Assembly (NCBI GenBank): GCA_007753675.1
Contig: CP036432.1
Location: 4,128,394 to 4,192,393, forward strand
Direction: 5' to 3'
Length of the DNA stretch: 64,000 bases
From: Stieleria magnilauensis
Lineage (GTDB): Bacteria > Planctomycetota > Planctomycetia > Pirellulales > Pirellulaceae
In this document: positions 16,354-33,470 of the stretch, one piece after another
How positions within the stretch are numbered: the first letter of the stretch is position 1
How the letters are laid out: the number at the start of each line of letters is the position of its first letter
Notes under the pieces: generated by a model
Database searches by the model: none
Seen by the model: only the letters and a program-made list of their open reading frames with translations
What the model was told of the DNA's origin: nothing
Translations under genes and position numbers: made by a program

Positions 16354-16431
16354 ACTGGGGCAGCGACCGGCAAGCTCAGCGACGGCTGGGACGACCACAA
16401 AAACAAGACCAGTGAGAGTATCACCGGAACG

Positions 16432-17604
16432 ATGAGTGGCTACGGATTCGATGTGATAACGAGCGGCACCGACGACGTGTTCTACCAATGGGACGCACTC
16501 GGTCGCCGCGTCGCACGCGGCGACGGCACGACGGTCAGCATCGATGTCCAAAATGGCCAGCCAACGATCGCAGACGACACGTCCGGAACCGCAGCGACCA
16601 GCCCGACCTACACCACCGCCTACGCGAACTCCCTCGACGAACCGGTCGTGCGTGACAGCACCGGCGGCGTGCGACACTACCATCGCGGCCAACAGTACAG
16701 TGTCAACGCACTGACCGATTCGAGTGGAGCGATCAAGGAACGGTACGCGTATGATGCCTACGGCAGTCTCTCGATCTTCGACGCCAGCGGCACGGCACGT
16801 ACGCCAACTGCCGAAGGCAACCGGTACACCTACACCGGTCGCGAGTACGACGACGTCCTTGACCTCTACCACTACCGCGCCCGCATGTACGATTCGATTG
16901 CGGGACGGTTTTTGAGTCGTGATCCGATTGGGTTCGAAGGTGGCCAGTGGAGCCTGTACATGTATGTTGGTGGGATGCCAACCAACGCCGCTGACCCCAG
17001 TGGATTGCAGATCAGGTTCTTTCCACCGGAAGGAGATCCACGAAATGAGAACAGTAGGTTGCCGGGATTTCACGTAGCTGACAAACCTGGGTGGTTCAGG
17101 ATCGTATGCCACGGTGGCTGCCACCTGGATGATGTAAGTGAGTTTTCACCCAAAAAACCAAATCCAAATTGGACGCCAGACGGAGGAGGCGGACCCGCAT
17201 ATATTCCCATCCCGGTAAATGAAATGTGCGCAAAAATCTTGTCGCACCCTTCTTATAAGCCCGGTTGCAAGGTCGAAATCATTGCTTGTCAGGTGGGACG
17301 AGGGGATTACGGCGAACGGTTGGCCGAGTGCTTGGGAGGCGGTTCTGATGTTTACACCTACCCAGAAAGCATCAACCCCGTAGGCAATAGCTTTTACTGC
17401 AACAACTCACCCCAGGAACCCGAAGACCTCTATGCCCCGGATTCCGGAGGAAACAAGCCACCAGTCATTTCACCTGGGCTATCGGATCTAGAAGCATGCT
17501 ACGCGAGGTGCGATCGAACTTTTCCCGGATTAACGAATTGGGTTCTTCGCAGCATATGCAAAGCAAAGTACTGTGACGTTCGTTACGGAAATGGAAGCCT
17601 ATGA
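16432..17604 (+). CDS. RHS core remnant with toxin tip 1
   Basis: 390 residues. RHS-type sequence is open from 16354 ('ATGKLSDGWDDHKNKTSESITG') and continues through 'YQWDALGRRVA' to the core end 'RYTYTGREYDDVLDLYHYRARMYD...GRFLSRDPIGF', finishing at 'DPSGL' near residue 191. It is far shorter than a full RHS protein, so most of the core has been lost. The ~200-residue C-terminus is a variable tip. In it, 'IVCHGGCH' (His near 227) and 'EIIACQVGRGDYGERLAECLG' (Cys near 285) resemble the His-Gly/Ala-Cys dyad of clan CD peptidases such as C80 or DUF4347 domains. A candidate immunity gene follows 20 bp downstream. The start codon is uncertain; the gene may not be expressed alone. Confidence 0.8.
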   Translation: MSGYGFDVITSGTDDVFYQWDALGRRVARGDGTTVSIDVQNGQPTIADDTSGTAATSPTYTTAYANSLDEPVVRDSTGGVRHYHRGQQYSVNALTDSSGAIKERYAYDAYGSLSIFDASGTARTPTAEGNRYTYTGREYDDVLDLYHYRARMYDSIAGRFLSRDPIGFEGGQWSLYMYVGGMPTNAADPSGLQIRFFPPEGDPRNENSRLPGFHVADKPGWFRIVCHGGCHLDDVSEFSPKKPNPNWTPDGGGGPAYIPIPVNEMCAKILSHPSYKPGCKVEIIACQVGRGDYGERLAECLGGGSDVYTYPESINPVGNSFYCNNSPQEPEDLYAPDSGGNKPPVISPGLSDLEACYARCDRTFPGLTNWVLRSICKAKYCDVRYGNGSL

Positions 17605-17624
17605 CCCATGCAGTCAACTGAAAC

Positions 17625-18059
17625 ATGCGATTCTCTATCAAAACTGTGGTGGTTGCAGTCCTTATGGCTGCTTTAGCAATGTCACATTTCGTGCTCCAAG
17701 CGAAACTACGAATGCAAATCCGTGCGTTCGAAGAGAAAGAGGAAGAACGCGAAAGCCTTGAGGACCCACTGGAAAGGCAACTAGTCGACTCGCTCACTAC
17801 CGGCGACTTACTTGGGACGAATCCATATTATATGATTCTTGTGGATAAGGTCGTGACACCAGCCAATCCGGAAATGTTTAACGGCTGGGCGAAAATGTTA
17901 GCCGAACTCGACGATTCTTCTCCGTCCGCTTTTGTGGACTGTGAATTCCACTTGTTTCGTTTTCGAGAGGGCAGGGACTACACAATCTTTGCCGTTATCG
18001 TGCGAGAGGATAGGTGTGTAAAGGTAATGTGGATAGGAGCAGAGATAAAACCCGTCTGA
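17625..18059 (+). CDS. Candidate immunity protein 1 (membrane-anchored)
   Basis: 144 residues, no family recognised. One N-terminal membrane helix (about residues 5-27) is followed by a Glu/Arg-rich coiled segment (about 30-55) and a small soluble domain. It sits 20 bp after toxin tip 1 on the same strand, the standard position of an RHS immunity gene, and this position is the only evidence for the role. The base composition is visibly lower in GC than in the flanking RHS core. Confidence 0.6.
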   Translation: MRFSIKTVVVAVLMAALAMSHFVLQAKLRMQIRAFEEKEEERESLEDPLERQLVDSLTTGDLLGTNPYYMILVDKVVTPANPEMFNGWAKMLAELDDSSPSAFVDCEFHLFRFREGRDYTIFAVIVREDRCVKVMWIGAEIKPV

Positions 18060-18265
18060 GTTGACGCGCTCAGCAATTTTCCGTCAGTGACCAAGCCAAA
18101 GGGGGCCATTACCTTTCCGATTAACCTGCCCGGTGGGCAGGATGCCCGCCGTCTTTGGGCACGATGCCGACTAAGAAAAAGGGTCAGGAGCCGAATTGGC
18201 AGGATAGGCAACCTGACGACTACGGACGCATCAAAGGGGGCGGGGGTTGAACCCCGCAAATGCAG

Positions 18266-18843
18266 CGGCGGACGATTGATGTGATCACAGGACCGAGTTG
18301 ACTTCCGCCGCAATGGGAGGCCGCTTGGTCTTGCCACAAGACCGACCGCGCACCTTCGGACATGAAAGAACGCCGAAGGCACGGCGGGTAGGATGCCCGT
18401 CGACTGAAACCCGTCGGGGACAGGATGTCCGTCGGAGAACGATGGCAGGAAGCGGGAGCACAGTTTCAGGTTTCAAGTTCCAGGTTCCAAGTTGAAAGAG
18501 AAGAAGTTGGAAGTTGGAAAACGTGAGCGGGCCATCCTTCGCCGACCGGAGTGAGGGAGGGATCGACCGAGCGGAGCCGACGGTTGACGGAGGTGGTGAC
18601 AGCGACCGAAGGATGAGGGTAGCGCCGAGCGCGAGCGAGCAGCACCGACGCCGAGGGCGGAGCCCGATCAGAACAGTGCGAGGCAGGATGCCGAGCTCCT
18701 TATCAAGAAGGGCGAAAGTGACCGCGACGAGCGACAGCGACGTAAGCCGGGAACGAGACGCTCGGTCAACCTTCAACCGACAGCTTGTCTGTTCGGCCAA
18801 AGCCCTCAGCGAATCACCGACAGGCTCCCCGGCAGTCACGGGC
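18266..18843. repeat. Long non-coding repeat, copy A
   Basis: It begins CGGCGGACGATTG and ends near 'GACAGGCTCCCCGG'. Homologues lie at 24349-24970 (B), 32256-32660 (C, truncated) and 32750-33363 (D). A short perfect hairpin (GGGGTTGAACCCC at about 18244-18256) precedes it. An internal variable patch contains 'TTTCAGGTTTCAAGTTCCAGG', shared with D but not with B or C. Open frames on the minus strand are not conserved in D. Confidence 0.88.
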
Positions 18844-18904
18844 GCATCAATCTCCGGCGCACGCGACTTCACGCAAAAGGCCGACGCCTCACTCTTCCCA
18901 TACG

Positions 18905-18988
18905 TTTTTTGGCTTTCGCCGATTTCGGACTGACGCCGTCACCCGTGACCGTCCGGTGGCAGTCCGAGAGAAGGCGAGAGTCAAAAAA
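18905..18988. repeat. Conserved ~84-bp imperfect palindrome, copy A
   Basis: TTTTTTGGCT...CGGACTG on the left pairs with CAGTCCG...AAAAAA on the right, with an internal GTCACCCGTGAC hairpin. The same structure occurs at 25101-25183 upstream of the second primase-like gene. It may be an origin, a recombination site or a regulatory structure. Confidence 0.75.
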
Positions 18989-18993
18989 CCAAA

Positions 18994-19035
18994 GTGCGAT
19001 CGTTAACACCAAGTGCGTTGACTTTAACGATTGAT
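18994..19035. promoter_or_regulatory. 42-bp block identical in both modules, copy A
   Basis: The block begins GTGCGATCGTTAACACC and ends TTTAACGATTGAT. It is identical base for base at 25191-25232, although its surroundings have diverged. ATCGTTAA and TTAACGAT form 8-bp inverted arms around a 17-bp centre. It also contains TTGACTTTAA, a possible -35. A recombinase or initiator binding site is a reasonable guess. Confidence 0.65.
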
Positions 19036-19318
19036 CCCGAAGCGGTTTTCTACTTTCGCAGCGGTTGGCCGATCGACACGCTTGACAGTGAGCGGAAGCT
19101 GTCGCGTCATGGAGGGCCGGCCGATCCGTGAGCCCCTGAGCCACGTTTCACCATCGCACCGTCAAGGCTCTCGACCGCCAACGACAGCCGACAGGTGCGC
19201 AGCTTTCGCGGACCCGACCGGCAAACCGCCGACACCTCTCCCCGCGATCTCTACCAGATTCAAAGCACCCAGCATGGGCCGGGCCACCGGTCTGCGCGCA
19301 CCCAACGGAGCCGACACA

Positions 19319-21364
19319 ATGAACGAAGACTTCCTCAACGCGATCATCGAAAACCCATTCAAGGCTGTCGCCGAATTCTATGCTTCATGCTTGAAGGAAA
19401 GCGAGCGAGCCATGGCGTACGTCAATGACGAACTTCATCTCACCAACGAACAAGCGACCGAACAACAAGTCGGATTTGCCGATCGAACACTCGGCAAGCA
19501 GATCCCGCAGCGACGTATCAAGCGTGGTCGTGAAGTCCGCGACGCGCTCGTCAACGCCGGCCTCTACAAGGCCAACGGACGAGAAACAATGCGTGGCCGT
19601 GTCACGGTTTCGATCACCGACAACGAAGGCAGCATCGTCGGCTTGCGTGGCTACAAGATCGATGCGCATGCAAGCGGTCCCGACGTGATCGTTGTTGGCG
19701 AAGAAGTCAAGACACTGTCCACGAATCACACCAATGACACGAATGAAGACAGTGCCACCGACACCAAGCCTAAGCCGACAACCCAAGACGAGAACGAACT
19801 GATCATCGAAGACAATCAAATCATCTTCATCCGCGATGATCGCCGCTATCGCATTCGCGGTCTTGAAAAGAACAAGTCGACGCTGACACTCAAGGTCAAC
19901 CTGATGGCTTCGCGCGATGACCTCGTTCACATGGACACGCTTGATCTTGTCAAGGCCCGATCACGAACGTCGTTTATCAAGGCTACCGCGACGGAACTCT
20001 ACACCGATGCGGACATCATCAAAAAAGACATTGGCACGTTGCTGCTGAAACTCGAAGCGTTGCAGTCCGATCGCATCGCGGCGTTGAAACAACCGACACG
20101 CGTCGAAGTGGAGCTCAGCGATGAAGAACAACGCGAAGCGTTGGGTCTGCTTCGCTCGCCCAACCTGCTCGAACGCATCGTTGCCGACATGGATGCCTGC
20201 GGGATCGTCGGCGAATCCACCAACAAGCTCGCCGGCTATCTGGCCGCGACCAGCCGCAAGCTTGCCAAACCACTCGCCATTGTGATCCAGTCATCATCCA
20301 GTGCCGGCAAGACATCGCTGATGGACGCGGTGCTTTCGATGATGCCAAGCGAAGACGTCAACCGCTTCAGCGGCATGACCGGTCAGTCGTTGTTCTACCT
20401 TGACAGCGACAGCATCAAACACAAGATCCTAGCCATCGCCGAAGACGAAGGCATCCGTCAAGCATCTTACGCGCTGAAGCTGCTTCAAAGCGAAGGCGAA
20501 CTGCGTCACGCCACGGTCGGCCGCGGCGAAGATGGCCGCAGTCAAACCCAAGAGCACCACGTCGAAGGCCCCACGCAAATCTTCCTCACGACAACAGCCC
20601 TCGACATCGACGAAGAACTGATCAATCGGTGCCTGATCTTGACTGTCGATGAATCGCGCAATCAGACCGACGCGATCCAAAACATCCAACGCGATGCGCG
20701 CGCAGCCGTGCTCAGTCAATCCAACGAACTCAAACGCAACATTCGCGAGCTGCATAAAAACGCACAACGACTGATCCGTCCGCTCACGATCGTCAATCCC
20801 TACGCGCCCCAGCTGACCTTCGCCAACTACAAAACCAGGCTTCGCCGTGATCACGAAAAGTATCTCACGCTGATCGACACAATCGCCCTGCTGCATCAAC
20901 ACGGCCGCGAAGTCAAAACCGTTGACCACAACGATCAATCGATCGAGTACATTGAAGTCACCCAAAATGACATCGCCGTTGCCAACGGCATCGCGGGTCT
21001 GGTTCTCGGGCGCAGCCTTGATGAACTCGCACCACAGACTCGCAATCTACTCGGCCTGCTCAACGACTACGTCACCGACACGGCCAAAGCGAACGCGGTT
21101 CCCCGCGACGCAGTCCGCTTCACGCGTCGCGACATCCGTGAAGCAACCGCGATCGGCAACAGCCAATTGAGCATTCACTTAAACCGTCTTGTCGATCTCG
21201 AATACGTCCACGTTCATCGCGGCAAAAACGGTCAGCGATACGTCTACGAGCTGCTCTACTGCGGCGAAGGCCGCGAGGGTCAACCGTTTATGATGGGACT
21301 GATCGATCCCAGCAAGCTCACCGAACCTGCAACTACAACCAAAACCTTCCGGGCCACCAAGTAA
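19319..21364 (+). CDS. Primase-helicase-like AAA+ protein, module A
   Basis: 681 residues. Residues 15-115 resemble the DnaG-type Toprim_N segment ('YASCLKESERAMAYVNDELHLT...GRETMRGRVTVSITDNEGSIVGLRGYKI'). The region 160-250 ('DRRYRIRGLEKNKSTLTLKVNLMAS') is typical of CHC2/Toprim primase-like proteins paired with tyrosine recombinases. The AAA+ core has Walker A 'SSSSAGKTS' (about 325-333), Walker B 'ILAIAEDEG' (about 370-378) and an Arg-finger-like 'INRC' near 436. A winged-helix region precedes the end. The CHC2 zinc finger and the catalytic Toprim are not visible; only a short Asn/Thr-rich linker (about 133-158) stands where Toprim would be. It probably remodels or replicates module DNA. 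The start has GGAG at 19307. Confidence 0.82.
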   Translation: MNEDFLNAIIENPFKAVAEFYASCLKESERAMAYVNDELHLTNEQATEQQVGFADRTLGKQIPQRRIKRGREVRDALVNAGLYKANGRETMRGRVTVSITDNEGSIVGLRGYKIDAHASGPDVIVVGEEVKTLSTNHTNDTNEDSATDTKPKPTTQDENELIIEDNQIIFIRDDRRYRIRGLEKNKSTLTLKVNLMASRDDLVHMDTLDLVKARSRTSFIKATATELYTDADIIKKDIGTLLLKLEALQSDRIAALKQPTRVEVELSDEEQREALGLLRSPNLLERIVADMDACGIVGESTNKLAGYLAATSRKLAKPLAIVIQSSSSAGKTSLMDAVLSMMPSEDVNRFSGMTGQSLFYLDSDSIKHKILAIAEDEGIRQASYALKLLQSEGELRHATVGRGEDGRSQTQEHHVEGPTQIFLTTTALDIDEELINRCLILTVDESRNQTDAIQNIQRDARAAVLSQSNELKRNIRELHKNAQRLIRPLTIVNPYAPQLTFANYKTRLRRDHEKYLTLIDTIALLHQHGREVKTVDHNDQSIEYIEVTQNDIAVANGIAGLVLGRSLDELAPQTRNLLGLLNDYVTDTAKANAVPRDAVRFTRRDIREATAIGNSQLSIHLNRLVDLEYVHVHRGKNGQRYVYELLYCGEGREGQPFMMGLIDPSKLTEPATTTKTFRATK

Positions 21365-21655: not shown

Positions 21656-22636
21656 ATGTCCCAAGTTCCTCTTCCCACCGTCCTGCTGTCTCGCTACTTC
21701 AGTTATCTCAAGATGAACAACTGGTCGACCAACACCCTCTCGCGCCGCGACTATGTCTTGAACAAGTTCATTAGCTGGTCAAGCGAACGCGGAATCGACA
21801 CGGTGACTGAGATCACATCCGATCTACTCGCTGCTTACCGACGTTGGCTTTATCACTATCGCAACGAGCGTACCGGCAAGCCACTCAAGTTCTGCACTCA
21901 AGCAAGTTATCTCTCAACGGTCGCGCACTGGCTCGGTTGGCTCAATGAACAAGGCTGGATTGAAACTGACCCATCAACAAATCTCGAACTGCCTAAAGAA
22001 GAACAACGCTTACCGTCATCGCATCTGACGATCGATGAAATCGAAGCGCTGCTCAGTTCCGTCGATCTCACAACACCAACCGGTCTTCGCGACCGCGCAA
22101 TCTTGGAACTGTTATATGCCACCGGCATGCGACGCGCGGAGTTGATCGCACTGAAGCTTGACGACATCAACCACGAGTCTGGTCTTGCCATGATCCGCCA
22201 AGGCAAAGGCCGCAAGGACCGCGTGGTCCCCACCGGCAAGCGTGCCCTCCAGTGGCTGATGAAATACCTTCACGACGGCCGTCCTGCGCTGATCGCTGAA
22301 GACACGCAAGTGATCTTCTTAACGACCCGCGGCAACGCGTTCCACCCCGTCACGCTCAGTCAGCTCGTCAGAAGCTACCTGACCGCGTCCGGCATCACGA
22401 AGCCGGGCAGTTGTCACATGCTTCGTCACACGACGGCCACGCTGATGCTCGAAGGCGGCGCGGATCTGCGTTCGATTCAAACGCTCTTGGGTCACGAGCA
22501 GCTCAACACGACGCAAATCTACACCCACGTCTCGATCAAACGCCTCCGCGAAGTCCACGACAAAACCCATCCGGGATCCAAGGACCGACCACCGCAATCA
22601 GATCCCAACAAGTCCGACGACAAACCCACCGAGTAG
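21656..22636 (+). CDS. Tyrosine recombinase (XerC/D-like), module A
   Basis: 326 residues. An N-terminal SAM-like core-binding domain (about 8-100) is followed by the catalytic domain with the complete residue set: Arg in 'ATGMRRAEL' (about 159), Lys in 'GKGRKDR' (about 184-187), HMLRH (254-258), His in 'LLGHE' (280) and the nucleophile Tyr in 'QIYTHV' (289). It should be able to cut and rejoin DNA at specific sites. It follows the primase-like gene by 291 bp and lies just ahead of the RHS tip 2 junction. It is about 85-90 % identical by eye to the module B copy. AAAGGA precedes the chosen ATG. Confidence 0.93.
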   Translation: MSQVPLPTVLLSRYFSYLKMNNWSTNTLSRRDYVLNKFISWSSERGIDTVTEITSDLLAAYRRWLYHYRNERTGKPLKFCTQASYLSTVAHWLGWLNEQGWIETDPSTNLELPKEEQRLPSSHLTIDEIEALLSSVDLTTPTGLRDRAILELLYATGMRRAELIALKLDDINHESGLAMIRQGKGRKDRVVPTGKRALQWLMKYLHDGRPALIAEDTQVIFLTTRGNAFHPVTLSQLVRSYLTASGITKPGSCHMLRHTTATLMLEGGADLRSIQTLLGHEQLNTTQIYTHVSIKRLREVHDKTHPGSKDRPPQSDPNKSDDKPTE

Positions 22637-22856
22637 TCGATCGATCCACTACAATATCGGGATGCTCTGTCATCGATCATCCCGCCGCCAAAACCTTCGC
22701 CAACGTCTCGCGCGCACCCGCGCGCGAGGCGTGAAACCGTGCGCCGATTTAAATTCAAACCGTAGCTGCAAAACGCTTCGTCAACCAACTTGCTCGCCCG
22801 GCAAATCACGCCCTGAAAACGACAGGCCATCTATCAAGTTCACGGTTCGCTATCTC
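22637..22856. other. Conserved hairpin tail between recombinase and RHS tip 2
   Basis: It contains CTCGCGCGC and GCGCGCGAG around an ACCC loop (about 22710-22731), then a nearly invariant stretch including 'TAGCTGCAAAACGCTTCG'. The same layout lies at 28806-29025, where the stem bases differ but pairing is largely kept. RHS homology starts immediately after, at 22857. This tail is a candidate attachment or crossover region. Confidence 0.65.
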
Positions 22857-23726
22857 CGCGGCCAACAGTACAGCATCAACGCACTGACCGATTCGAGCGG
22901 GACGATCAAGGAACGGTACGCTTATGACGCGTACGGCGGTCTGTCGATCTTCGACGCTGCTGGAACCGCACGTACGACGACGGCCGAAGGTAACCGCTAC
23001 ACGTACACCGGACGCGAGTACGACGACGTTCTCGACCTGTACCACCATCGCGCCCGCATGTACGACTCGATCGCTGGACGGTTCTGCTCCAGAGACCCGA
23101 TTGGCTTCATGGGGAGCCCGTTTAACCTGTATGAGTACGTTAGTGCGATGCCCCTCTCGGCGCGGGATCCGTCTGGACTTGTTGGCCCTGGCGACGGCGG
23201 AGCCGGTGGCTGGCCGGGGGACCCGTTCATTGATCCAAAGCGACCGAGGCCATCATTGCCAGACGTTCCAGCCGGTGGTGCGGGCTGCATGGCGATCGCC
23301 GTTCCAATTGCTGTTGTTGAGCCGACACCCTGCGGTGAAGCTGCTCTCGTGGTAATCGTCTGGGTCACTGCGGTCGTCTGCGACAAGGCCCAAACACAAC
23401 GAAGAACGACTCGGTTGCCAAAACCACCTGGAAGGCCATTCAAATTTCGCAACCCGTTCCGATCGCCGAGGGTCGATCCTGGGTATCCGCCTCCGAATCC
23501 TCCTGACCGTGACGACGATAAGGAAAAGAGGTGTCCGGAAGGTGAGTGTTGGTGTTGCGTTAATCAAACCTATCCTATGGATCCAAACCCCGGTTCAGTG
23601 AAGTCGTGTTCGTGCCGAGACGCCGAAGATTGCTGGCTGGATGGTGATACTTGCAGCCCTTACGATCAAGAAATCGACAAGCCGGCGAGACCAGACCCCA
23701 ACAACCCACCACCATGGGGAAACTAA
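22662..23726 (+). CDS. Orphan RHS toxin tip 2
   Basis: The 354-codon frame opens at an ATG in the module tail. RHS homology starts at codon 66 ('RGQQYSINALTDSSG') and continues to 'ARDPSGL' (about residue 172). The ~180-residue tip has a Gly/Pro-rich linker, a long hydrophobic segment ('CMAIAVPIAVV...AALVVIVWVTAVV', about 205-240) and a Cys-rich end ('GECWCCVNQTY...CSCRDAEDCW'). No toxin family is recognised. The 65-codon leader has exactly the same length in tip 3, but its amino-acid pattern looks non-coding, so this may be a silent cassette awaiting recombination into a full RHS gene. A candidate immunity gene follows after 3 bp. Confidence 0.72.
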   Translation: MLCHRSSRRQNLRQRLARTRARGVKPCADLNSNRSCKTLRQPTCSPGKSRPENDRPSIKFTVRYLRGQQYSINALTDSSGTIKERYAYDAYGGLSIFDAAGTARTTTAEGNRYTYTGREYDDVLDLYHHRARMYDSIAGRFCSRDPIGFMGSPFNLYEYVSAMPLSARDPSGLVGPGDGGAGGWPGDPFIDPKRPRPSLPDVPAGGAGCMAIAVPIAVVEPTPCGEAALVVIVWVTAVVCDKAQTQRRTTRLPKPPGRPFKFRNPFRSPRVDPGYPPPNPPDRDDDKEKRCPEGECWCCVNQTYPMDPNPGSVKSCSCRDAEDCWLDGDTCSPYDQEIDKPARPDPNNPPPWGN

Positions 23727-23729: not shown

Positions 23730-24218
23730 ATGGAAGAGCCCGACCCGTTGCTTTCTGACTATCTTCGTCGCCTTGCGGCGAAACATGGACCGACACGGCG
23801 TTGGGCGGCGATTTACGCTGGGTCGTACCACAAAGAAGACTGTGCTTTGCTAGTTAAGGGGCTATCCGACTTGGTCGTCCGGGAATGCAAGGACTCGGAA
23901 GGCCAAGTTCTAGCCGGGATTCATAGAGATATCGTTTGCCGATCACTAGACTCAATAGGCAATATCATAGTTCAGAGCGCGTTTGAGTTGTCGCAATTCG
24001 ATCGGCGTTGGTTAATCGAAGCGATGGAGGAGGCTGTTGGAGCAGATCTTGACGAGGTAGACGCTAGCGTTATTCAGCTATGGGAGAGGTCTGGGGTTTC
24101 ATCTAAAAGAATCGTGGATTCCCTTCGCCGATCCAGCACTCGACTCATCCCAACTTGGCAAGAACGATTGAATCGTCTACTGATCGAATCAAATCGTTCC
24201 CGACTCTCTGATGATTGA
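23730..24218 (+). CDS. Candidate immunity protein 2 (helical, soluble)
   Basis: 162 residues, predicted mostly helical and without signal or membrane segment. No family is recognised. Its ATG lies 3 bp after the stop of RHS tip 2, so the two are translationally adjacent, as expected of a toxin-immunity pair; the role is inferred from position only. The base composition is more AT-rich than the primase and recombinase genes. Confidence 0.6.
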   Translation: MEEPDPLLSDYLRRLAAKHGPTRRWAAIYAGSYHKEDCALLVKGLSDLVVRECKDSEGQVLAGIHRDIVCRSLDSIGNIIVQSAFELSQFDRRWLIEAMEEAVGADLDEVDASVIQLWERSGVSSKRIVDSLRRSSTRLIPTWQERLNRLLIESNRSRLSDD

Positions 24219-24348
24219 GCAACGCGAGATCAAAGGGGGCGGGGGTATTTTTTGGGGACCGAATCTAAGGGAACACGCCTCTTTGATGAGCGAGGGAAGC
24301 GGTTGACTTGCTTTCGATGCCGCCGCAAGGCGGCGTTTACATTTTCAG

Positions 24349-24970
24349 CGGCGGACGATTGATGCCAACACAGGACCGAGTCTCGTTCCGCCGCAATCGA
24401 TGGTTGCAAGACCTTGCTGTTCGCGCTGACGGTCACGATAACCGCCGCCTGTCTTCGGCACGATGCCGGACCGCGCACCTTCGGGCACGAAAGAACGCCG
24501 AAGGTACGGCGGGTAGGATGCCCGTCGCATGAAACCCGTCGGGGACAGGATGTCCGTCGGAGAACGATGGCAGGAAGCGGGAGGCAAGAGAGGGAGACAC
24601 GGAGAGGGGGAGACAAGGAGAGTGGGAGTGATGATGATGGTGGTTTGATGGAGCGGGCCATCGTTCGGCGACCGGAGTGAGGGAGGGATCGACCGAGCGG
24701 AGCCGGCGGTTGACGGAGGCTGATGACAGCGACCGAAGGATGAGGGTAGCGCCGAGCGCGAGCGAGCACCACCGACGCCGAGGGCGGAGCCCGATAAGAA
24801 CAGTGCGAGGCAAGATGCCGAGCTCCGTATCAAGAATTGCGAAAGTGACCGCGACGAGCGACAGCGACGTAAGCCGGGAACGAGACACTCGGCAAACCCT
24901 CAACCGACAGCTTGTCTGTTCGGCCAAAGCCCTCTGCGAATCACCGACAGGCTCCCCGGCAATCACGGGC
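24349..24970. repeat. Long non-coding repeat, copy B
   Basis: Homologous to copies A, C and D. A GCCGCC..GGCGGC hairpin (about 24320-24335) precedes it. Its internal patch (about 24591-24650) is the purine-rich 'GGCAAGAGAGGGAGACACGG' type shared with C, not the type shared by A and D. Confidence 0.88.
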
Positions 24971-24982
24971 GTGGCATCCAAA

Positions 24983-25073: not shown

Positions 25074-25100
25074 CACATACCCACCTACTCTCCCCCTACG

Positions 25101-25524: not shown

Positions 25525-27567
25525 ATGAACGACGACTTTTTGAACGCGATTCTCGCCGACCCGATCAAGGCCATCGCCGAATTCTACGCTTCATGCTTGA
25601 ATGGAAGTGACCGCGCGAAAGCCTATGTCAACGACGAACTGCACCTGACCAATGAACAAGCGACCGAACAACAAGTCGGATTTGCCGACCGAACACTTGG
25701 AAAGCAGATCCCACAGCGCCGCATCAAGCGTGGCCGCGAAGTCCGTGACGCGCTCGTCGAAGCCGGCCTCTACAAAGCCAACGGACGCGAAACAATGCGT
25801 GGCCGTGTCACGGTTTCGATTCTTGACAACGACGGCAACGTGATTGGGCTACGTGGTTACAAGATCGATGCGCACGCCGATGGACCCGACGTGATCGTAG
25901 TCGGTGATGAAGTTGAAGCACTGTCCACGAATGACGACAGTAACAACGAGAAGGACTCAGCGCCAGCACAACAGTTCGACAACGAACTGATCCTCGAAGA
26001 CAATCAAACCACCTTCATCCGCGACGATCGACGCTATCGCATCCGCGGTCTTGAAAAGAATAAGTCGACGCTGACACTCAAGGTCAACTTGATGGCTTCG
26101 CGCGAAGACCTCGTTCACATGGACACGCTCGATCTTGTGAAGGCGCGCTCGCGAACATCGTTCATCAAGGCTACCGCAACCGAACTCTACACCGATGCGG
26201 ACATCATCAAAAAAGACATCGGCACGTTGCTGCTCAAACTCGAAGCCTTGCAGTCTGATCGCATCGCGGCACTAAAACAACCGGTGCGAATCGAAGTCAA
26301 GCTCAGCGACGAAGAGCAACGCGAAGCGTTAGCTCTGCTTCGCTCTCCCAACCTCCTCGAACGGATCGTCGCCGACATGGACGCTTGCGGCATCGTCGGC
26401 GAGTCCACCAACAAGCTCGCGGGATACCTGGCCGCAACCAGTCGCAAGCTTGCCAAGCCGCTCGCCATTGTCATTCAATCATCATCGTCGGCCGGCAAGA
26501 CATCTCTGATGGACGCAGTCCTCTCGATGATGCCATCCGAGGATGTCAACCGCTTCAGTGGCATGACCGGCCAGTCGTTGTTCTACCTCGACAGCGACTC
26601 AATCCGTCACAAGATCCTGGCGATCGCCGAAGACGAAGGCATCCGCCAAGCAAGCTATGCATTGAAACTACTGCAAAGCGAAGGCGAGCTGCGTCACGCC
26701 ACGGTCGGCCGCGGCGAAGACGGTCGTAGCCAAACCCAAGAACACCACGTCGAAGGCCCTACGCAAATCTTCCTCACCACAACCGCGCTCGACATCGATG
26801 AAGAACTGATCAATCGTTGCTTGATCTTGACCGTAGATGAATCCAAATCACAGACTGATGCAATCCAGTCGAAGCAACGTGAATCGTTCACGCATGACTT
26901 CACCGAACATGGCTACCTTGCCGGTCAGTTGAAACGCCTTCATCAAAACGCTCAGCGGTTGCTGCGTCCCGTCGAGGTTTTCAACCCGTTCGCGACGCAG
27001 CTGACGTTCCCCAATCACAAAACACGCATGCGGCGCGATCACATCAAGTATCTGACGCTGATCAACACCATCGCGTTCCTGCACCAGCACCTGCGGACGA
27101 TTCATTCGGCACAACAAGGCGACATCTCGACCGAGTTCATCAACGTCGAGCCCGGTGATATCGCAATCGCCAACGGCATCGCGGGTGAAGTCCTCGGACG
27201 CAGTCTGGATGAACTCGCGCCGCAGACGCGAAACCTGCTCGGCAGACTGCATGACTTCGTCGACTCGAACTCACGATCGATCGGGCTTCCGCGGGACGCA
27301 TTCCGGTTCACCCGCCGCGATGTCAGGGAAGCGATCCACTGGAGCGATTCGCAAATCCAAAAGCATCTTGGTCGGCTTGTCGATCTGGAATACGTGCTCG
27401 TTCACCGTGGTCGCAACGGCCAACGCTACGTCTACGAACTGCTTTACGGTGGGGAGGGACGCGAAGGCCAACCGTTCCTGATGGGGCTGATCGATCCGGC
27501 GAAACTCAAGACACCTGCAACTACAACCAAAACCTCGACCCCCTTGGTCGAAACCTCAACCCCCTGA
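25525..27567 (+). CDS. Primase-helicase-like AAA+ protein, module B
   Basis: 680 residues, the paralogue of the protein at 19319-21364. It has the same order: Toprim_N-like segment, short acidic linker in place of a catalytic Toprim, 'RRYRIRGLEKNKS' region, AAA+ core with 'SSSSAGKTS' and 'ILAIAEDEG', and a C-terminal winged helix. Divergence is concentrated at about 445-520 and in the linker, while the ATPase core is almost unchanged, as expected under purifying selection. The missing CHC2 and Toprim parts are missing in both copies, so the loss predates the duplication. The gene starts at ATG 25525. Confidence 0.82.
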   Translation: MNDDFLNAILADPIKAIAEFYASCLNGSDRAKAYVNDELHLTNEQATEQQVGFADRTLGKQIPQRRIKRGREVRDALVEAGLYKANGRETMRGRVTVSILDNDGNVIGLRGYKIDAHADGPDVIVVGDEVEALSTNDDSNNEKDSAPAQQFDNELILEDNQTTFIRDDRRYRIRGLEKNKSTLTLKVNLMASREDLVHMDTLDLVKARSRTSFIKATATELYTDADIIKKDIGTLLLKLEALQSDRIAALKQPVRIEVKLSDEEQREALALLRSPNLLERIVADMDACGIVGESTNKLAGYLAATSRKLAKPLAIVIQSSSSAGKTSLMDAVLSMMPSEDVNRFSGMTGQSLFYLDSDSIRHKILAIAEDEGIRQASYALKLLQSEGELRHATVGRGEDGRSQTQEHHVEGPTQIFLTTTALDIDEELINRCLILTVDESKSQTDAIQSKQRESFTHDFTEHGYLAGQLKRLHQNAQRLLRPVEVFNPFATQLTFPNHKTRMRRDHIKYLTLINTIAFLHQHLRTIHSAQQGDISTEFINVEPGDIAIANGIAGEVLGRSLDELAPQTRNLLGRLHDFVDSNSRSIGLPRDAFRFTRRDVREAIHWSDSQIQKHLGRLVDLEYVLVHRGRNGQRYVYELLYGGEGREGQPFLMGLIDPAKLKTPATTTKTSTPLVETSTP

Positions 27568-27848: not shown

Positions 27849-28805
27849 ATGTCAAACGTTCCTACTCCCACCGTCCTACTGTCTCGTTACTTCAATCACC
27901 TCAAGATGAACAACTGGTCGGCCACGACCATCTCGCGGCGCGACTACGTCTTGAACAAGTTCATCACCTGGTCAAGCGAACGCGGCATCGAGTCCGTCAC
28001 CGAGATCACGCCCGAGTCACTCGCAGCCTATCGCCGTTGGCTCTACCACTCCCGCAACGAACGCACCGGCAAGCCGCTGAAGTTCTGTACGCAAGCAAGC
28101 TACCTCTCAACGGTTGGTCACTGGCTCGCATGGCTGAGTGAACAAGGCTGGATCGACAGCGCTCCATCAACCGGCATCGAACTCCCCAAGGAAGAACAGC
28201 GTCTTCCATCATCGCACCTGACGATCGACGAAATCGAAACGCTACTCAGTTTAGTGGATCTCACAACGCCAACCGGCCTTCGTGACCGCGCGCTGTTGGA
28301 ACTCTTTTATGCCACCGGAATGCGCCGCGCCGAGCTGATCGCACTGAAGCTCGACGACATCAACCACGAGTCCGGCCTTGCCATGATCCGTCAAGGCAAA
28401 GGCCGCAAGGATCGCGTGGTGCCGACCGGCAAGCGAGCGCTCGGATGGCTGATCAAATATCTTCACGACGGTCGCCCCGCGCTACTCGATGAAGACACGC
28501 AAGTCATCTTCCTAACGTCCCGCGGCAACGCGTTCCATCCGGTCACGCTCAGCCAACTCGTCAGAAGCTACTTGACTGCGGCGGGCATCACGAAGCCCGG
28601 CAGTTGCCACATGCTCCGCCACACGGCGGCGACGTTGATGCTCGAAGGCGGCGCGGACCTGCGCTCGATCCAAACGCTCTTGGGACACGAGCAACTCAAC
28701 ACGACGCAGATCTACACCCACGTGTCGATCAAACGACTCCGCGAAGTCCACGACAAAACCCATCCAGGAGCCAAGGACCGACCACCGCAAAGCGACACCG
28801 AATAG
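27849..28805 (+). CDS. Tyrosine recombinase (XerC/D-like), module B
   Basis: 318 residues, the paralogue of the recombinase at 21656-22636, with all catalytic residues kept (GMRRAE, GKGRKDR, HMLRH, LLGHE, QIYTH). It differs in a few surface residues and lacks the Asp/Lys-rich C-terminal extension. Both copies being intact suggests continuing use. It lies between the module B primase-like gene and orphan RHS tip 3. Confidence 0.93.
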   Translation: MSNVPTPTVLLSRYFNHLKMNNWSATTISRRDYVLNKFITWSSERGIESVTEITPESLAAYRRWLYHSRNERTGKPLKFCTQASYLSTVGHWLAWLSEQGWIDSAPSTGIELPKEEQRLPSSHLTIDEIETLLSLVDLTTPTGLRDRALLELFYATGMRRAELIALKLDDINHESGLAMIRQGKGRKDRVVPTGKRALGWLIKYLHDGRPALLDEDTQVIFLTSRGNAFHPVTLSQLVRSYLTAAGITKPGSCHMLRHTAATLMLEGGADLRSIQTLLGHEQLNTTQIYTHVSIKRLREVHDKTHPGAKDRPPQSDTE

Positions 28806-28830
28806 CCTGTCCATCAGTTACAATAGCGGG

Positions 28831-30030
28831 ATGCTCTGCAAGCCATCATGCCGTCGTCGAACCCTTCAACGCCGTCTCGCGCGCCACCGCGCGGGAGGCG
28901 TTAAGTCGTGCGCCGATTCAAAACAAATCCGTAGCTGCAAAACGCTTCGTCAACCAACCTGCTCGCCCGGCAAATCACGCACTGAAAGCGACGAATCATC
29001 TAACAAGTTCGCGGTTCGCTACGTCCGCGGCCAACAGTACAGTGTCACCGCACTGACCGATTCGAGCGGAACGATCAAGGAGAGGTACGCTTACGATGCC
29101 TATGGCAATCCGTCGGTGTTCGATGGCGCAGGTGTTGCACGTGCAGCGACAGCTGAAGGCAACCGGTATACCTACACCGGCCGCGAGTACGACGACGTCC
29201 TTGATCTCTACCACTATCGCGTCCGCATGTACGACGCGATCGCTGGACGGTTCTGCTCCAGAGATCCTATTGGGTACATGGATGGGCCTATGCAGTATCA
29301 GTACGTGGCTGCTAATCCGACCGGTCGTATTGACCCAGGTGGGCTGTCAATGTTTTGGCCGGGCGGCGGCACTGTGTTGCCCGACATCAGCATCCCAGAC
29401 CTGTGGGATTTTCCACAGTTTGCATGGCACTATTACTTCGGCGGAGGTAGGCCGTATTCAGTTGATCCCGAAGACATGCAGGACTTCATAAACGGGTCGT
29501 CCAACGCAATGGGAGCATTGCGAGGCATGGCAAGGGGTTCTGCGTTCAGTGCAGCTACTTGTGGAAAAACTGTCCAGACACACGGTCACCAAAGAATGAA
29601 TGGTTTTGGACTGAACGTACCGAAAGGCAGTTTATGGGCGTTCTTCCGGGACAAGCACATTCTTAATACAGGTACCGCTGATGTAAGTTGGACTTGTTCG
29701 GCAACGAAAAGTTGCTGCAAAGATGGAACGGTTGAATCAATCTCTTTGTCTTGCACGGTGAATGTTAACTACTCAGATAGATTTGCTAATCCTTTCGACA
29801 TTGGCGGAGAGTATCACGAACACGACCCGATCAAACTAAGGAAGTGCCAGGAGCGCTGCCGGGCACGTTATGAAGCCGATGGGAATTCGGTCGGATACAT
29901 GAATTGCAATGGAAGATGTTGGGAGAAAAACCCGTTGACTGAACGTTTTGGTGCCGTAGCGTTTAACATTTTTGGGCAGCATTCTGAATCGTTTAGCGAG
30001 AACTACAAGCTGGGAACTTGCTGTGATTAA
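28831..30030 (+). CDS. Orphan RHS toxin tip 3
   Basis: A 399-codon frame. RHS homology begins at codon 66 ('RGQQYSVTALTDSSG'), the same codon as in tip 2, and runs to 'RIDPGGL' (about residue 172). The ~227-residue tip contains 'ATCGKTVQTHGHQRMNGFG' and several Cys pairs (SWTCSATKSCCKDG, KCQERCRARYE, CNGRCWEK), suggesting a disulfide- or metal-stabilised extracytoplasmic domain. No known toxin family is recognised. Its last 8 bases overlap the next gene, a small lipoprotein. The core is clearly diverged at nucleotide level from tips 1 and 2 while the frame and motifs are kept. Confidence 0.72.
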   Translation: MLCKPSCRRRTLQRRLARHRAGGVKSCADSKQIRSCKTLRQPTCSPGKSRTESDESSNKFAVRYVRGQQYSVTALTDSSGTIKERYAYDAYGNPSVFDGAGVARAATAEGNRYTYTGREYDDVLDLYHYRVRMYDAIAGRFCSRDPIGYMDGPMQYQYVAANPTGRIDPGGLSMFWPGGGTVLPDISIPDLWDFPQFAWHYYFGGGRPYSVDPEDMQDFINGSSNAMGALRGMARGSAFSAATCGKTVQTHGHQRMNGFGLNVPKGSLWAFFRDKHILNTGTADVSWTCSATKSCCKDGTVESISLSCTVNVNYSDRFANPFDIGGEYHEHDPIKLRKCQERCRARYEADGNSVGYMNCNGRCWEKNPLTERFGAVAFNIFGQHSESFSENYKLGTCCD

Positions 30031-30463
30031 GCTGACAGCGATCCTGCTTCCGGTAGTGTTCGCAGGGGGATGCTATTCCAACGTCTCACAGCTTGACGTC
30101 CTAGTCAATTCTCGGATTCAACACGCCGAGCTCTTACAAACTGCAACAGGTCATGGCGTTTCAACGTCGGCACCTGACGAGATAGTAGGACTCTTTAATT
30201 CTCTTATTCCTTATGAGCGCACCGGTCCAGGTCGAATTGAGAATCCACAGTACATAGGTAAGTTTTTTGTCGCTGGACGCTGGGCGGAAATACGAGTCGC
30301 TACCGACCAGGAGCCGCCAACGTTTTCATTCGATGGATATGTTTACAGAAGCCAACGGGCGAATGGGTTTACAAAGATAGCGAACGATGTGCTTAATGCG
30401 CCTTTGGAGCGATCAAACGCGATGGAGGTAGTTTCGGAGAAGCCACCCGATGAACCGGAGTGA
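30023..30463 (+). CDS. Candidate immunity lipoprotein 3
   Basis: 146 residues from a GTG that overlaps the end of RHS tip 3 by 8 bp. The N-terminus 'VIKLTAILLPVVFAGGCYSN' is a lipoprotein signal with the modified Cys at about residue 17. The rest is a small soluble domain without recognised family. Location outside the cytoplasm would fit a partner for a Cys-rich, secreted tip. The immunity role is inferred from position. The upstream in-frame Met at 29972 would bury the signal and is not favoured. Confidence 0.62.
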   Translation: MIKLTAILLPVVFAGGCYSNVSQLDVLVNSRIQHAELLQTATGHGVSTSAPDEIVGLFNSLIPYERTGPGRIENPQYIGKFFVAGRWAEIRVATDQEPPTFSFDGYVYRSQRANGFTKIANDVLNAPLERSNAMEVVSEKPPDEPE

Positions 30464-30523: not shown

Positions 30524-30594
30524 TGTTCTTCGGCGGGATGCCGACCATGCGCATCGGACCAAACAAAGGTGGACCAAACAAAGGTGTCAGGACT

Positions 30595-32176
30595 GAATGG
30601 CACGGGCATAAGTGGAATCAACTAGATGTGGTGCGATTGCGTTCGTGCTAGCACAACGGGCAGTGATATCAAATCGCAATCGCACTTTGCGTGCCGTAAA
30701 TGAATTGAAAACACAGCGAGCCTCCGGTGCAATGGAGTTATCAAGCACATCACTTCACTGGAGGGCTCACCGTGAACGATCAGTCTACCGATGCAGGCTT
30801 CGAAGTTCAAAGCAAATTGCGAAAAGCCTCATCACTCGTTTTGGACCTCCTTCTGCCTCAGGTTGAGGTGGCAAGGGTTTGCGCTGAACTGAAGCACAAA
30901 TACCGCGATTGCCCCTACAACCCGATGATCACCGTTTGGTTGTTCATTTCACAGGTCCTTTCGGCAGACCACAGTTGCCAACAGGCCGTCACCCGCTTCA
31001 ATGTGTACCGCGTCGCGAAGGGGTTGCTTCGCGTCAGCAGCGAAACAACATCGTATTGCAAGGCACGCGGCAGGCTTCCTGAGCAACTCTTCGAAAGGCT
31101 GCTTGCATGGACCGCGAAACGTTGCGAAGAGGCGACCGACCAAGCTTGGCTGTTTCAAGACCGGATTGTCGAAATGGTTGATGGCTGGACCTTGACGATG
31201 GCTGACACCGACGAGAACCAAGAAGAATACCCCCAAATGAAAAGTCAAAAGCCTGGCTGCGGTTTTCCGATCGCCAGGATGATTGGCTTGTTTTCCCTTG
31301 CGACAGGTGCAATTCAACGCACGGCAGTGGGGCCGTACCGAGGTAAACAGACTGGTGAGACAGCGCTACTGCGGACGTTTTTGGACTGCATTTTACCGGG
31401 GCGAATCTTGCTGGCTGACCGCTACTACGCAAACTTCTGGTTGCTTGCCATGGGGCCGATGCGAGGTATCGACTTGGTGGCCAGGGCGCACCAACTTCGC
31501 AAAATCGATTTTCGCCGTGGGCTCAAACTTGGCTACCTGGATCAGTTAGTCGCCTACCGCAAACCGCCACGTCCCAAGTGGATGAGCAAGAAAGAATACG
31601 ATCAGTATCCTTGTTTGGTCATTGTCCGTCACCTGAAGTACAAGGTTGAGCAGCGAGGTTTTCGAACCAGGGAAATTACCCTGGCCACGACGTTGGTGGA
31701 TGCCGAAATCTATGCCGCGGAAGATTTGGCCGAACTGTTTCGCAAGAGATGGCAGGTGGAGCTTCACATCCGAAGCCTGAAAACTCAAATGCAGATGGAG
31801 CACTTGCGATGCAAGAGCCCGCAAATGGTTCGCAAGGAAATCCACTGCCACATGATTGGATTCAATCTAGTCCGCGCTGCGATCATGGCATCTGCGTTGA
31901 AGTTCGGGCGATGTCCGACAAGGCTGAGCTTTACCGGCGCGATGCAGGCGATTGAAGAGCTTGCAGCATTTCTCCGACTCCGCTGCGGAAGCCCGGGCGA
32001 ACAATTCGACAACCTGCTCGAAACGATCTCCGAACTGGTTGTCGGCAATCGACCAGGTCGCCAAGAAAAACGGGAACTCAAACGCAGGCAGAAAAACTAC
32101 AAGCTCATGAAAACGAGACGCAACCCGAACCGAAACCGTTACGCCACAGCAGCTTAGGCTTATGCCCGTGCCATTC
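30595..32176 (+). mobile_element. IS4-family insertion sequence, 1582 bp
   Basis: Both ends are the perfect 18-bp inverted repeat GAATGGCACGGGCATAAG. The 11-bp string GTGTCAGGACT is duplicated exactly on both sides (30584-30594 and 32177-32187). Perfect ends and a perfect duplication indicate a recent insertion. It lies between immunity gene 3 and repeat copy C. Confidence 0.95.
30772..32157 (+). CDS. IS4-family transposase
   Basis: 461 residues. The catalytic acids are placed in 'VDGWTLTMADT', 'ILLADRYYANFW' and 'FRKRWQVELHIRSLK', the last giving the R-(3)-E-(6)-K signature. The C-terminus is strongly basic. The start is GTG at 30772, with GGAGGG at 30760-30765; an upstream in-frame extension to 30727 is rejected on that basis. 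The frame is intact, and the encoded enzyme presumably moved this element. Confidence 0.93.
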   Translation: MNDQSTDAGFEVQSKLRKASSLVLDLLLPQVEVARVCAELKHKYRDCPYNPMITVWLFISQVLSADHSCQQAVTRFNVYRVAKGLLRVSSETTSYCKARGRLPEQLFERLLAWTAKRCEEATDQAWLFQDRIVEMVDGWTLTMADTDENQEEYPQMKSQKPGCGFPIARMIGLFSLATGAIQRTAVGPYRGKQTGETALLRTFLDCILPGRILLADRYYANFWLLAMGPMRGIDLVARAHQLRKIDFRRGLKLGYLDQLVAYRKPPRPKWMSKKEYDQYPCLVIVRHLKYKVEQRGFRTREITLATTLVDAEIYAAEDLAELFRKRWQVELHIRSLKTQMQMEHLRCKSPQMVRKEIHCHMIGFNLVRAAIMASALKFGRCPTRLSFTGAMQAIEELAAFLRLRCGSPGEQFDNLLETISELVVGNRPGRQEKRELKRRQKNYKLMKTRRNPNRNRYATAA

Positions 32177-32255
32177 GTGTCAGGACTCTTTTCCGCGTAA
32201 GTCAAGCGATTGACGATCGCACAACGCCGCCGCGAGGTGGCGTTTGCTTTTCTGG

Positions 32256-32660
32256 CGGCGGACGATTGATGCCAACACAGGACCGAGTCTCGTTCCGCCG
32301 CAATCAATGGCTGCAAGACCTTGCTGTTCGCGCTGGCGGTCACGATGACCGCCCCTGTCTTCGGCACGATGCCGGACCATGCATCTTCACGCGTAAAAAA
32401 ACGCCGTAGGCACGGCGGGCAGGATGCCCGTCGATTGAAACCCGTCGGGGACAGGATGTCCGTCGGAGAACGATGGCAGGGAGCGGGAGGCAAGAGAGGG
32501 AGACACGGAGAGGGGGAGACAAGGAGAGTGGGAGTGATGATGGTCGTGGAGTGAGGTAGCGTGCCATCGTTCGGCGACCGGAGTGAGGGAGGGATCGACC
32601 GAGCGGAGCCGGCGGTCGACGGAGGTGGTGACAGCGACCGAAGGATGAGGGTAGCGCCGA
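32256..32660. repeat. Long non-coding repeat, copy C (truncated)
   Basis: Nearly identical to the first two thirds of copy B, including the purine-rich internal patch. It stops at 32660 in 'GGGTAGCGCCGA' and is joined directly to 'CACGAATCTAAGGGG', a sequence that corresponds to the segment before copy B (about 24259). A hairpin (AACGCCGCC/GGTGGCGTT, with one G-T pair, at about 32223-32244) precedes it. Confidence 0.85.
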
Positions 32661-32749
32661 CACGAATCTAAGGGGTCAGGCCTCTTAGATGAACCGACCG
32701 AGGAATCAGCCCCCTAAGACGCGGCGATTGACGTTGCTTCCCTTTCTGG

Positions 32750-33363
32750 CGGCGGACGATTGTCTTGACCGCACGGCCGAGCTGACTTCCGCCGCAACCG
32801 GATAGCCCGCCAGCTTCACTTCGCATGGCGGTCACGACGACCGCCGATGTCTTCGGCACGACGCGAGACCGCACACCTTCAATCACGAAAGAACGCCGTA
32901 GGCACGGCGGGTAGGATGCCCGTCGATTGAAACCCGTCGGGGACAGGATGTCAGTCGGAGAACGATGGCAGGAAGCGAGAGCACAGTTTCAGGTTTCAAG
33001 TTCCAGGTTCCAAGTTGAAAGAGAAGAAGTTGGAAGTTGGAAAACGTGAGCGGGCCATCGTTCGGCGACCGGAGTGAGGGAGGGATCGACCGAGCGGAGC
33101 CGGCGGTTGACGGAGGTGGTGACAGCGACCGAAGGATGAGGGTAGCCCCGAGCGCGAGCGAGCAACACCGACGCCGAGGGCGGAGCCCGATAAGAACAGA
33201 CGAGGCAGGATGCCGAGTTCGTTATCAAGAAGGGCGGAAGTGACCGCGACGAGCGACAGCGACGTAAGCCGGGAACGAGACGCTCGGTAAACCATCAACC
33301 GACAGCTTGTCTGTTCGGCCATAGCCCTCTGCGAATCACCGACAGGCTCCCCGGCTGTCACGG
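32750..33363. repeat. Long non-coding repeat, copy D
   Basis: A full-length copy of the A type, with the 'TTTCAGGTTTCAAGTTCCAGG' patch. It is followed by the small palindromic element but by neither a primase-like nor a recombinase gene. One base missing near 33199 shifts the minus-strand frame seen in copies A and B. Confidence 0.85.
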
Positions 33364-33375
33364 CTGTGGCGTCCG

Positions 33376-33470
33376 AACCGTTGGTGTCCAGCCTTCAGGC
33401 GCTCTTCCACGACGCCTTCGGCGCTCGAACGACCGGGCGAGGATCGGCTAAAGCCTAGACACCAACGGTT
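33376..33470. repeat. Small palindromic element, copy 2
   Basis: AACCGTTGGTGTC on the left and GACACCAACGGTT on the right, about 95 bp in all. It sits at the same position relative to repeat copy D as 24983-25073 does to copy B. Confidence 0.78.

Follow-up and report, generated by a model that had tools for sequence, protein, structure and literature searches.

Tip acquisition by polymorphic toxins has so far been ascribed to generic recombination, and the locus described here raises the question of whether a dedicated element can bring it about. The locus, array A, lies in a 64,000-nucleotide stretch of the planctomycete Stieleria magnilauensis (hereafter the window; positions 4128394-4192393 of contig CP036432.1), whose genome, G000, is a single contig of 10.77 Mb. 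In array A the ends of RHS toxin genes, each with a different C-terminal tip, alternate with modules that pair a primase-helicase-like gene with a gene for a XerC-like tyrosine recombinase. We consider it probable that a tip and a module together form a mobile element that integrates at a site, X, inside an RHS gene and displaces the old tip.

The first half of array A reads RHS core end, tip 1, small gene, non-coding repeat, primase-helicase-like gene, tyrosine recombinase and leader. The second half continues with core end, tip 2, small gene, repeat, second gene pair and leader, followed by core end, tip 3, small gene, DDE transposase and repeats. The features, located from open reading frames (ORFs), repeats and junction comparisons, are as follows, Y being a second junction site described below.

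16354..17604, plus strand: RHS core end and tip 1 (array position 1; no full RHS shell upstream), from ORFs; an orphan tip of genome G001 matches it from X onwards at 97.2% over 1479 bp
16684..16697, plus strand: junction site X1, GCGGC/CAACAGTA, from junction comparison
17625..18059, plus strand: small gene after tip 1, presumed immunity gene; no Pfam match
18263..18700, no strand: non-coding repeat copy 1, after small gene 1; further copies near 24346, 32253 and 32747
18701..18726, plus strand: junction site Y1, TATCAAGAAGGGCGAAAGTGACCGCG, from junction comparison
18997..19033, no strand: palindrome upstream of primase-like gene 1; whole stretch against shuffles, z 0.15
19322..21364, plus strand: primase-helicase-like gene 1; weak DnaG N-domain match, Walker-A-like QSSSSAGKT, winged-helix-like end
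21656..22636, plus strand: XerC-like tyrosine recombinase 1; catalytic residues conserved
22637..22856, plus strand: leader between recombinase 1 and X2, with a hairpin (13-bp stem) at 22703-22732
22857..22870, plus strand: junction site X2, from junction comparison
22857..23726, plus strand: RHS core end and orphan tip 2; the open frame starts upstream, within the leader
23730..24218, plus strand: small gene after tip 2, presumed immunity gene, from an ORF
24346..24827, no strand: non-coding repeat copy 2, from repeat comparison
24828..24853, plus strand: junction site Y2 (2 mismatches), from junction comparison
25525..27567, plus strand: primase-helicase-like gene 2, by homology to gene 1
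27849..28805, plus strand: tyrosine recombinase 2, by homology to recombinase 1
29026..29039, plus strand: junction site X3, from junction comparison
29026..30030, plus strand: RHS core end and orphan tip 3, from an ORF
29972..30463, plus strand: small gene overlapping the end of tip 3, presumed immunity gene, from an ORF
30727..32157: DDE_Tnp_1 transposase after tip 3
32181..33490, no strand: two more non-coding repeat copies at the array end, the second containing Y3 (33223-33248), from repeat comparison

A sequence-only reading of the window had described three RHS core ends with unrelated tips, each followed by a small gene, and between them two homologous modules of about 4.6 kb. Both descriptions were borne out. 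The three frames, with unrelated continuations, end at 17604, 23726 and 30030; their core ends share 73-80% mutual identity over 300 bp, are spaced by 6173 and 6169 bp, and the first piece is an open frame of 416 codons without the shell of a full RHS gene. The small genes at 17625 and 23730 follow their tips, and that at 29972 overlaps tip 3. A Pfam search with six tips and three small genes gave no credible match. The modules (18266-22856 and 24349-29025) are homologous, with AAA-like proteins 81% and recombinases 89% identical, and their right-hand ends at 22856 and 29025 coincide with a sharp junction (22857-22863 and 29026-29032), which is X.

The same layout was found at other loci. A second array in G000, array B, lies 2.7 Mb from array A and has modules that share 98% identity with window module 1; together with five arrays in G001, this gave seven arrays. 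In these, 16 of 16 full recombinase copies, found among 19 Y-to-X intervals, have X, at the same RHS codons, 230-276 bp downstream. The whole of G000 holds 11 core-end matches, 7 of them inside arrays A and B. The check proposed with the earlier reading, whether RHS ends flank the gene pair more often than chance, thus gave a clear yes in close relatives, with a frequency far above chance. Because of the modules of array B and the 16/16 pairing of recombinase and X, the layout of array A is not a chance arrangement. The array termed G001a begins with an open frame of 2226 amino acids that runs from a putative signal peptide through an RHS shell and X into tip 1, a tip that the array also keeps as an orphan; three units follow, each made up of a gene pair, a leader, a core end and a tip. 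The first RHS piece of array B has no shell. For further genomes of the genus, the expected RHS flanking held for most copies and failed for one (G004b): an RHS core end follows the primase/recombinase copies in G003, G005, G007 and G004a, about 1.2 kb on in G008, and with a partial recombinase in G009, and the G013 contig ends too early to show what follows its copy.

Several further features of these arrays were recorded. The genes directly before array B (L009 1-10459) resemble, by a reading of their translations, a type VI secretion system (T6SS) cluster ending in a ClpV-like ATPase. Array B also carries an inserted transposase apparently of the ISAs1/H-repeat kind (L009 12709-13872 and L010 13477-14640), in 1.3-kb copies that are 99.6% identical, and in two Escherichia coli arrays (L175 and L177) an inserted transposase is annotated as ISAs1-like. 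H-repeats have long been known at E. coli rhs loci. In three loci from some lineages (L140, L113 and L137), the orphan-tip frame starts with a putative signal peptide, which suggests that such orphans may be exported on their own. Elsewhere in the window, positions 9688-12675 encode a protein kinase fused to laminin-G-like and FGE-sulfatase domains.

We then delimited the junctions. X is the boundary between leader and RHS core inside the RHS coding sequence, and reads GCACC/CAACAGTA in G001. Unrelated leaders, including different leader families, stop at the same base before CAACAGTACAGC in G000, G001, G003, G008, G009 and G013, and the bases just 5' of X match the host's own RHS gene (GCGGC in G000, GCACC in G001 and GCAAC in G007). 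Y, 26 bp long, is a motif of the non-coding repeat that follows the small gene. With up to 3 mismatches it occurs at 7 sites in G000, all within arrays A and B, and at 19 sites in G001, all but one within arrays; a reversed-pattern control gave 0 matches in 12 genomes. X and Y alternate strictly in all seven arrays, three X sites of array B that the pattern missed having been placed by hand from the RHS alignment. Between them the two sites cut every unit into blocks, the stretch from X to Y being the tip block and that from Y to X the module block.

At both sites identity drops abruptly, from 100% to the roughly 80% of the core or to unrelated sequence. Window module 1 equals module 2 of array B for 4338 bp to the left of X and for 11 bases to its right, after which only the ~80% core remains. 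In G001a the match between modules 1 and 2 extends 4210 bp to the left of X and 8 bp to the right, and that between tips 1 and 3 extends 1902 bp to the right of X and 5 bp to the left. A breakpoint test over 25 X and 25 Y sites (300 X pairs and 300 Y pairs), with a run of at least 300 bp and at most 2 mismatches required on one side, found such a run in 8 X pairs and 8 Y pairs; the match stopped within 26 bp beyond the site in 8/8 X pairs and 7/8 Y pairs, in rows that are not all independent and with two X sites placed by hand. The Y crossovers fall in windows of 25, 14 and 8 bp that all contain the 7-bp ATCAAGA. A short shared core is found at both junctions, as in a site-specific integrative element. 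By these sequence comparisons, we show that the junctions X and Y are fixed.

Nine Y sites lie outside the arrays, eight of them in stretches new to the analysis and one in a stretch already covered. In five, an RHS core end or pieces of one lie within 3.5 kb upstream, with X in 3 of these, one has a weak RHS-like match, and recombinase remnants stand beside four. A folded, attC-like structure was looked for at X and Y and not found: folding around Y (z 0.96) and X (z 1.28) is no better than in shuffles. The start of the non-coding repeat does fold well: the first 118 bases of copy 1, about 440 bp before Y, beat 199 of 200 shuffles (z -2.62). The palindrome stretch (18997-19033) does no better than shuffles, and an origin or an operator are guesses as to what it is.

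Three cases then spoke to the form in which the blocks move. In each, an order of module, X and tip at one place reappears elsewhere as tip, Y and module, in a first-position unit. The first unit of G001a consists of its own tip 3 and module 2, tips 1 and 3 being equal over 1,907 bp and modules 1 and 2 over 4,218 bp with no mismatch. The first unit of array B likewise consists of tip 3 and module 2, with one mismatch and with insertion-sequence insertions present. The first unit of G001b consists of tip 2 and module 1 of G001d, 1.6 Mb away, the tip (~2.07 kb) with at most 2 mismatches and the module exact over 3,412 bp. The permuted order excludes the copying of a straight stretch, and fits a circle (or a head-to-tail equivalent) in which X and Y each served once; a circular intermediate is thus strongly indicated. 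The polarity of the exchange could be reversed, and both sites would still be needed. Copying is suggested because both the source and the new copy remain in place. Tips and modules are moreover shared between loci and between genomes. Window tip 1, for instance, recurs at the 97.2% identity given above as the G001 orphan that stands behind a recombinase; the first ~100 bp after X are less alike, and this exchange may have been partly homologous. The module common to G001d and G001b (G001b 15832-18064) was also seen to hold a frame resembling only the N-terminal core-binding domain of a tyrosine recombinase, and no primase-helicase gene. These arrangements largely support the earlier proposal that orphan tips travel with, or are shuffled by, the recombinase module.

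The proteins of the module are consistent with such a role. The R, K, H..R, H and Y columns, which we take to be the catalytic residues, are invariant in the recombinase alignment, as expected of the integrase of a site-specific integrative element. The recombinase matches the XerD structure 1a0p (E 4.3e-61) and passes the XerC-type model NF002331 (375.2 against a cut-off of 371); it fails the integron-integrase model TIGR02249 (110 bits against a cut-off of 265). The partner gene had been called primase-like, and of its DnaG-like N-terminus there remained a weak match to the DnaG N-terminal domain, below the cut-off and the sole trace of DnaG in the window protein. A relative in G072 has all three parts of the DnaG-type set (CHC2 zinc finger, DnaG N-domain and Toprim), and the E. 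coli copies are annotated as CHC2 zinc finger/DNA primase. A search of the PDB with the AAA-like protein gave no relatives at E 0.1, 50,697 phage records gave no match at E 1e-5, and a scan of IMG/VR gave one relative. The family was also seen on 13 Leptospira plasmids and on plasmids of Enterobacter, Providencia and others.

A search of 147 genomes found the primase-like protein in 22; within the genus, it is present in 9 of 14 genomes, G000 included. A genome scan yielded at least 507 relatives from many phyla. Among the best 80 loci, 74 have a recombinase within 1.5 kb on the same strand, at a median gap of 309 bp. An RHS-end motif lies on the module strand in 33 of these 80 and on the opposite strand in 0 (28 and 0 with a stricter pattern); the other 47 have short flanks or cargo outside the motif pattern, and for them this count shows no RHS linkage.

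We examined two of the distant lineages. Catenovulum sediminis has 14 X sites, with tips starting at one site. Of two single-nucleotide polymorphisms, that at +4 follows the left flank and that at +16 the right, so that the exchange falls within TTTGGCAATGC (11 bp). On chromosome 2 an RHS frame of 1205 codons is fused to a tip that on chromosome 1 stands behind another tip, and the ~10 kb downstream of it are nearly identical on the two chromosomes. A joint between tip, ACCGGC and module was tried as the second site, Y, and rejected: it proved to be an insertion of ~6.6 kb that shows a short duplication of its target and carries, on the opposite strand, genes that are paired and transposition-like. 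This insertion in the tip array of chromosome 1 (L180/L181, reverse complement 16183-22737) has paired AAA-like and transposase-like frames and TGT...ACA ends, and looks Tn7/Mu-like by eye.

Of the 5,426 complete E. coli genomes searched, 55 carry a match that covers at least 80% of a 3.2-kb xerC-primase stretch. Eight of these loci were examined. All eight are rhs arrays and come after vgrG, a DcrB-related gene and a large RHS gene, which is broken at two of them; pptA or ansP are neighbours in 6, only the adjoining yddH-nar genes in 1, and neither in 1. Strain R12 has the simplest form of the proposed layout, an intact RHS gene with its tip, then small gene, SymE, primase, xerC, leader and orphan tip. 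Here X is GAYCCGATAGGGYT, at DPIG codons, and the six leader-X junctions seen in five strains all read CCCGAT/GAYCCGATAGGGYT; beyond it they continue in five different ways, in one case with a broken frame. The difference of about one unit between R12 and MP1, SCU-111 and LI60C3 was considered as a pair before and after integration and was rejected, the break lying ~700 bp before X in a leader repeat.

Two small circular records consist, by our reading, of whole units. That of Lonsdalea populi (11,289 bp) holds one full and one shortened primase frame, xerC and two tips, and that of Shigella flexneri SWHIN_104 (8,758 bp) holds one unit. Both are candidate free circles, and could also be artefacts of the assembly of tandem units. 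Circle L175 equals unit 2 of strain SCU-113 to the left of X (0 mismatches in 482) and unit 1 on the tip side (0 in 2721). This pattern fits excision by exchange between X1 and X2, the rest differing somewhat (98.6% identity overall), and the exchange point is only bounded because units 1 and 2 are identical for 1838 bp beyond X.

In the mechanism that we propose, module and tip would move as a single element. A circle, reading RHS core end, tip, immunity gene, Y, primase-helicase, recombinase and leader and closed at X, would integrate at X within an RHS gene, where the incoming tip would join the host RHS protein in frame. The old tip, now behind the leader of the element, would turn into an orphan. 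With each further insertion the array of retired tips would lengthen, a module standing at the head of most of them. The XerC-like recombinase, with its conserved residues, is the presumed catalyst at X and probably also at Y. The primase-helicase would copy the circle, given that source units stay in place, and other copies may act in trans. The selected outcome would be diversified toxins against competing bacteria, and the element may still move today.

Several observations weigh against this mechanism. Array A itself has no full RHS shell, the copy in G004b has no following RHS end, and the module moved between G001b and G001d has no primase-helicase gene in cis. X lies further on, at the DPIG codons, in G004 and G005, and the core pieces of G007 start elsewhere; X is therefore lineage-specific. 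Y is established only in the Stieleria group, three of the nine outlying Y sites have no RHS end nearby, and window module 1 and array B module 2 show no breakpoint at Y. Because X and Y share little sequence, the action of one enzyme on both is unproven. Finally, among six tip pairs with at least 95% identity from X, two lose their likeness no more than ~100 bp beyond it and one more has only the 281-bp core end in common, as expected from homologous recombination or later change; the position of the R12/MP1 break is that of homologous recombination. Because of that leader break and these tip pairs, homologous recombination too is, on sequence evidence, reshaping the arrays. As to the mode of exchange, the breakpoint test and Catenovulum point to a fixed site, and the tip pairs and R12/MP1 show that homologous events occur as well.

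Could homology do all of the work? RecA-dependent C-terminal displacement through core ends and non-coding repeats would turn the circles into by-products and the primase/recombinase modules into passengers acting elsewhere, which we regard as unlikely. The homology is available in core ends ~80% identical and in the repeats, the junction position differs between lineages, R12/MP1 and two of the six tip pairs look like its products, and displacement by homologous recombination has been proposed for Enterobacteriaceae in the available text of Jackson et al. 2009 (PMC2935791). However, in three cases from the Stieleria group the crossovers lie within 16 bp of the left edge of a core end of ~250 bp, and in Catenovulum the exchange falls within 11 bp; those at Y fall on the same 7 bp three times; and different leader families end at an identical X in G000, G001, G003, G008, G009 and G013. 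A single segmental duplication of an RHS-recombinase block followed by divergence would account for the homology of the two window units and their nearly constant spacing. The sequence-only reading had itself named this alternative, as one duplication with no further examples; instead there are many arrays in many genomes, different tips, abrupt steps in identity and three circular permutations, and with the breakpoint test already contradicting it we hold it to be very improbable.

A further possibility keeps the mechanism that we favour and gives it another selective interpretation: a selfish integrative element, with the RHS core end as attachment site and the tip as the end that restores the gene, not as selected cargo. 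Phages restore tRNA genes with their own end on integration. The same site-specific anatomy is accounted for, and modules near-identical between loci indicate recent spread. The tips, however, are mutually unrelated, each has its small gene, and the same tip block can recur at different positions whichever module adjoins it; we find this possibility more doubtful still than displacement by RecA. With the mobile tip-and-module element as the preferred reading, we also lean, somewhat less firmly, towards seeing in it an undescribed class of mobile element. Its attachment site would lie in a polymorphic-toxin gene, its cargo would be a C-terminal toxin domain and an immunity gene, and it would replicate as a circle. 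From planctomycetes to Proteobacteria it would serve as a general engine of tip exchange, and the episomal tip reservoir predicted in 2009 would consist of free circles such as those of Lonsdalea (11.3 kb) and Shigella (8.8 kb). If this is true, a dedicated integrase/primase element with mapped sites is a mechanism of tip acquisition, orphan-tip arrays are a record of past weapons, and nature offers a system for the site-specific exchange of protein C-termini.

How does the element compare with known systems? The statement that no described system has this layout was not contradicted: we found no described recombinase or integrase that exchanges Rhs or polymorphic-toxin tips in the open-licence literature. 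P4-like satellites pair a minimal integrase with a primase-helicase; here the target is the RHS core, and the primase-like protein is absent from the phage records searched. In shufflons (Rci/PilV), a tyrosine recombinase switches alternative C-termini of one protein by inverting fixed segments within a locus, whereas here units would insert through circles, arrays grow, and units cross loci and genomes. Integrons have a XerC-like tyrosine recombinase and silent cassette arrays with insertion at the first position. The present arrays are alike in all three respects, but they carry a recombinase, often with the primase-like gene, inside most units in place of one integrase, and their site lies in coding sequence, so that a cassette becomes a protein domain.

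Closer to the cargo, Jackson et al. 2009 (PMC2935791), as far as the available text goes, describe a new tip joining the core with the old tip moved downstream, and propose circular intermediates and an episomal tip reservoir. Rhs C-terminal displacement is the same as what was found here in having tips fused to core ends and orphans behind the main gene, and differs in that here an integrase/primase pair accompanies the tips and the junctions are fixed within each lineage. Effector exchange is ascribed to homologous recombination in the accessible part of Kirchberger et al. (PMC5361080). The Aux3 element of Vibrio cholerae, a T6SS effector element, has its toxin/immunity locus moved by an integrase between att sites via a circle (PMC7721734); in the text available, it is a prophage-like island that moves, and no new tip is put on an existing toxin gene. 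The accessible text of Zhang 2012 (PMC3482391) notes XerC/D recombinases beside polyimmunity loci, which might help immunity genes accumulate.

Related in layout are the recombinase-associated immunity arrays (rAID) of Bacteroidales (PMC12247911), in which, according to the portion available, a predicted tyrosine recombinase accompanies arrays of orphan immunity genes whose formation is called unclear. Shared with the present arrays are, in that text, a tyrosine recombinase beside co-oriented small antagonism genes and conserved intergenic motifs; a single recombinase is described there, and toxin tips, a primase and a site within a toxin gene are not mentioned in it. rAID is defined there by a recombinase with at least two co-oriented immunity genes without toxins, whereas each unit here has a core end and tip before its small gene. 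Our proposal, if true, could bear on how rAID arrays form. Every part of the element is familiar, and rAID is a cousin in layout; an attachment site and a cargo that are the toxin gene's own C-terminus are undescribed in the open-licence literature. On a stricter view, the element could be counted among the integrase-borne cassette systems.

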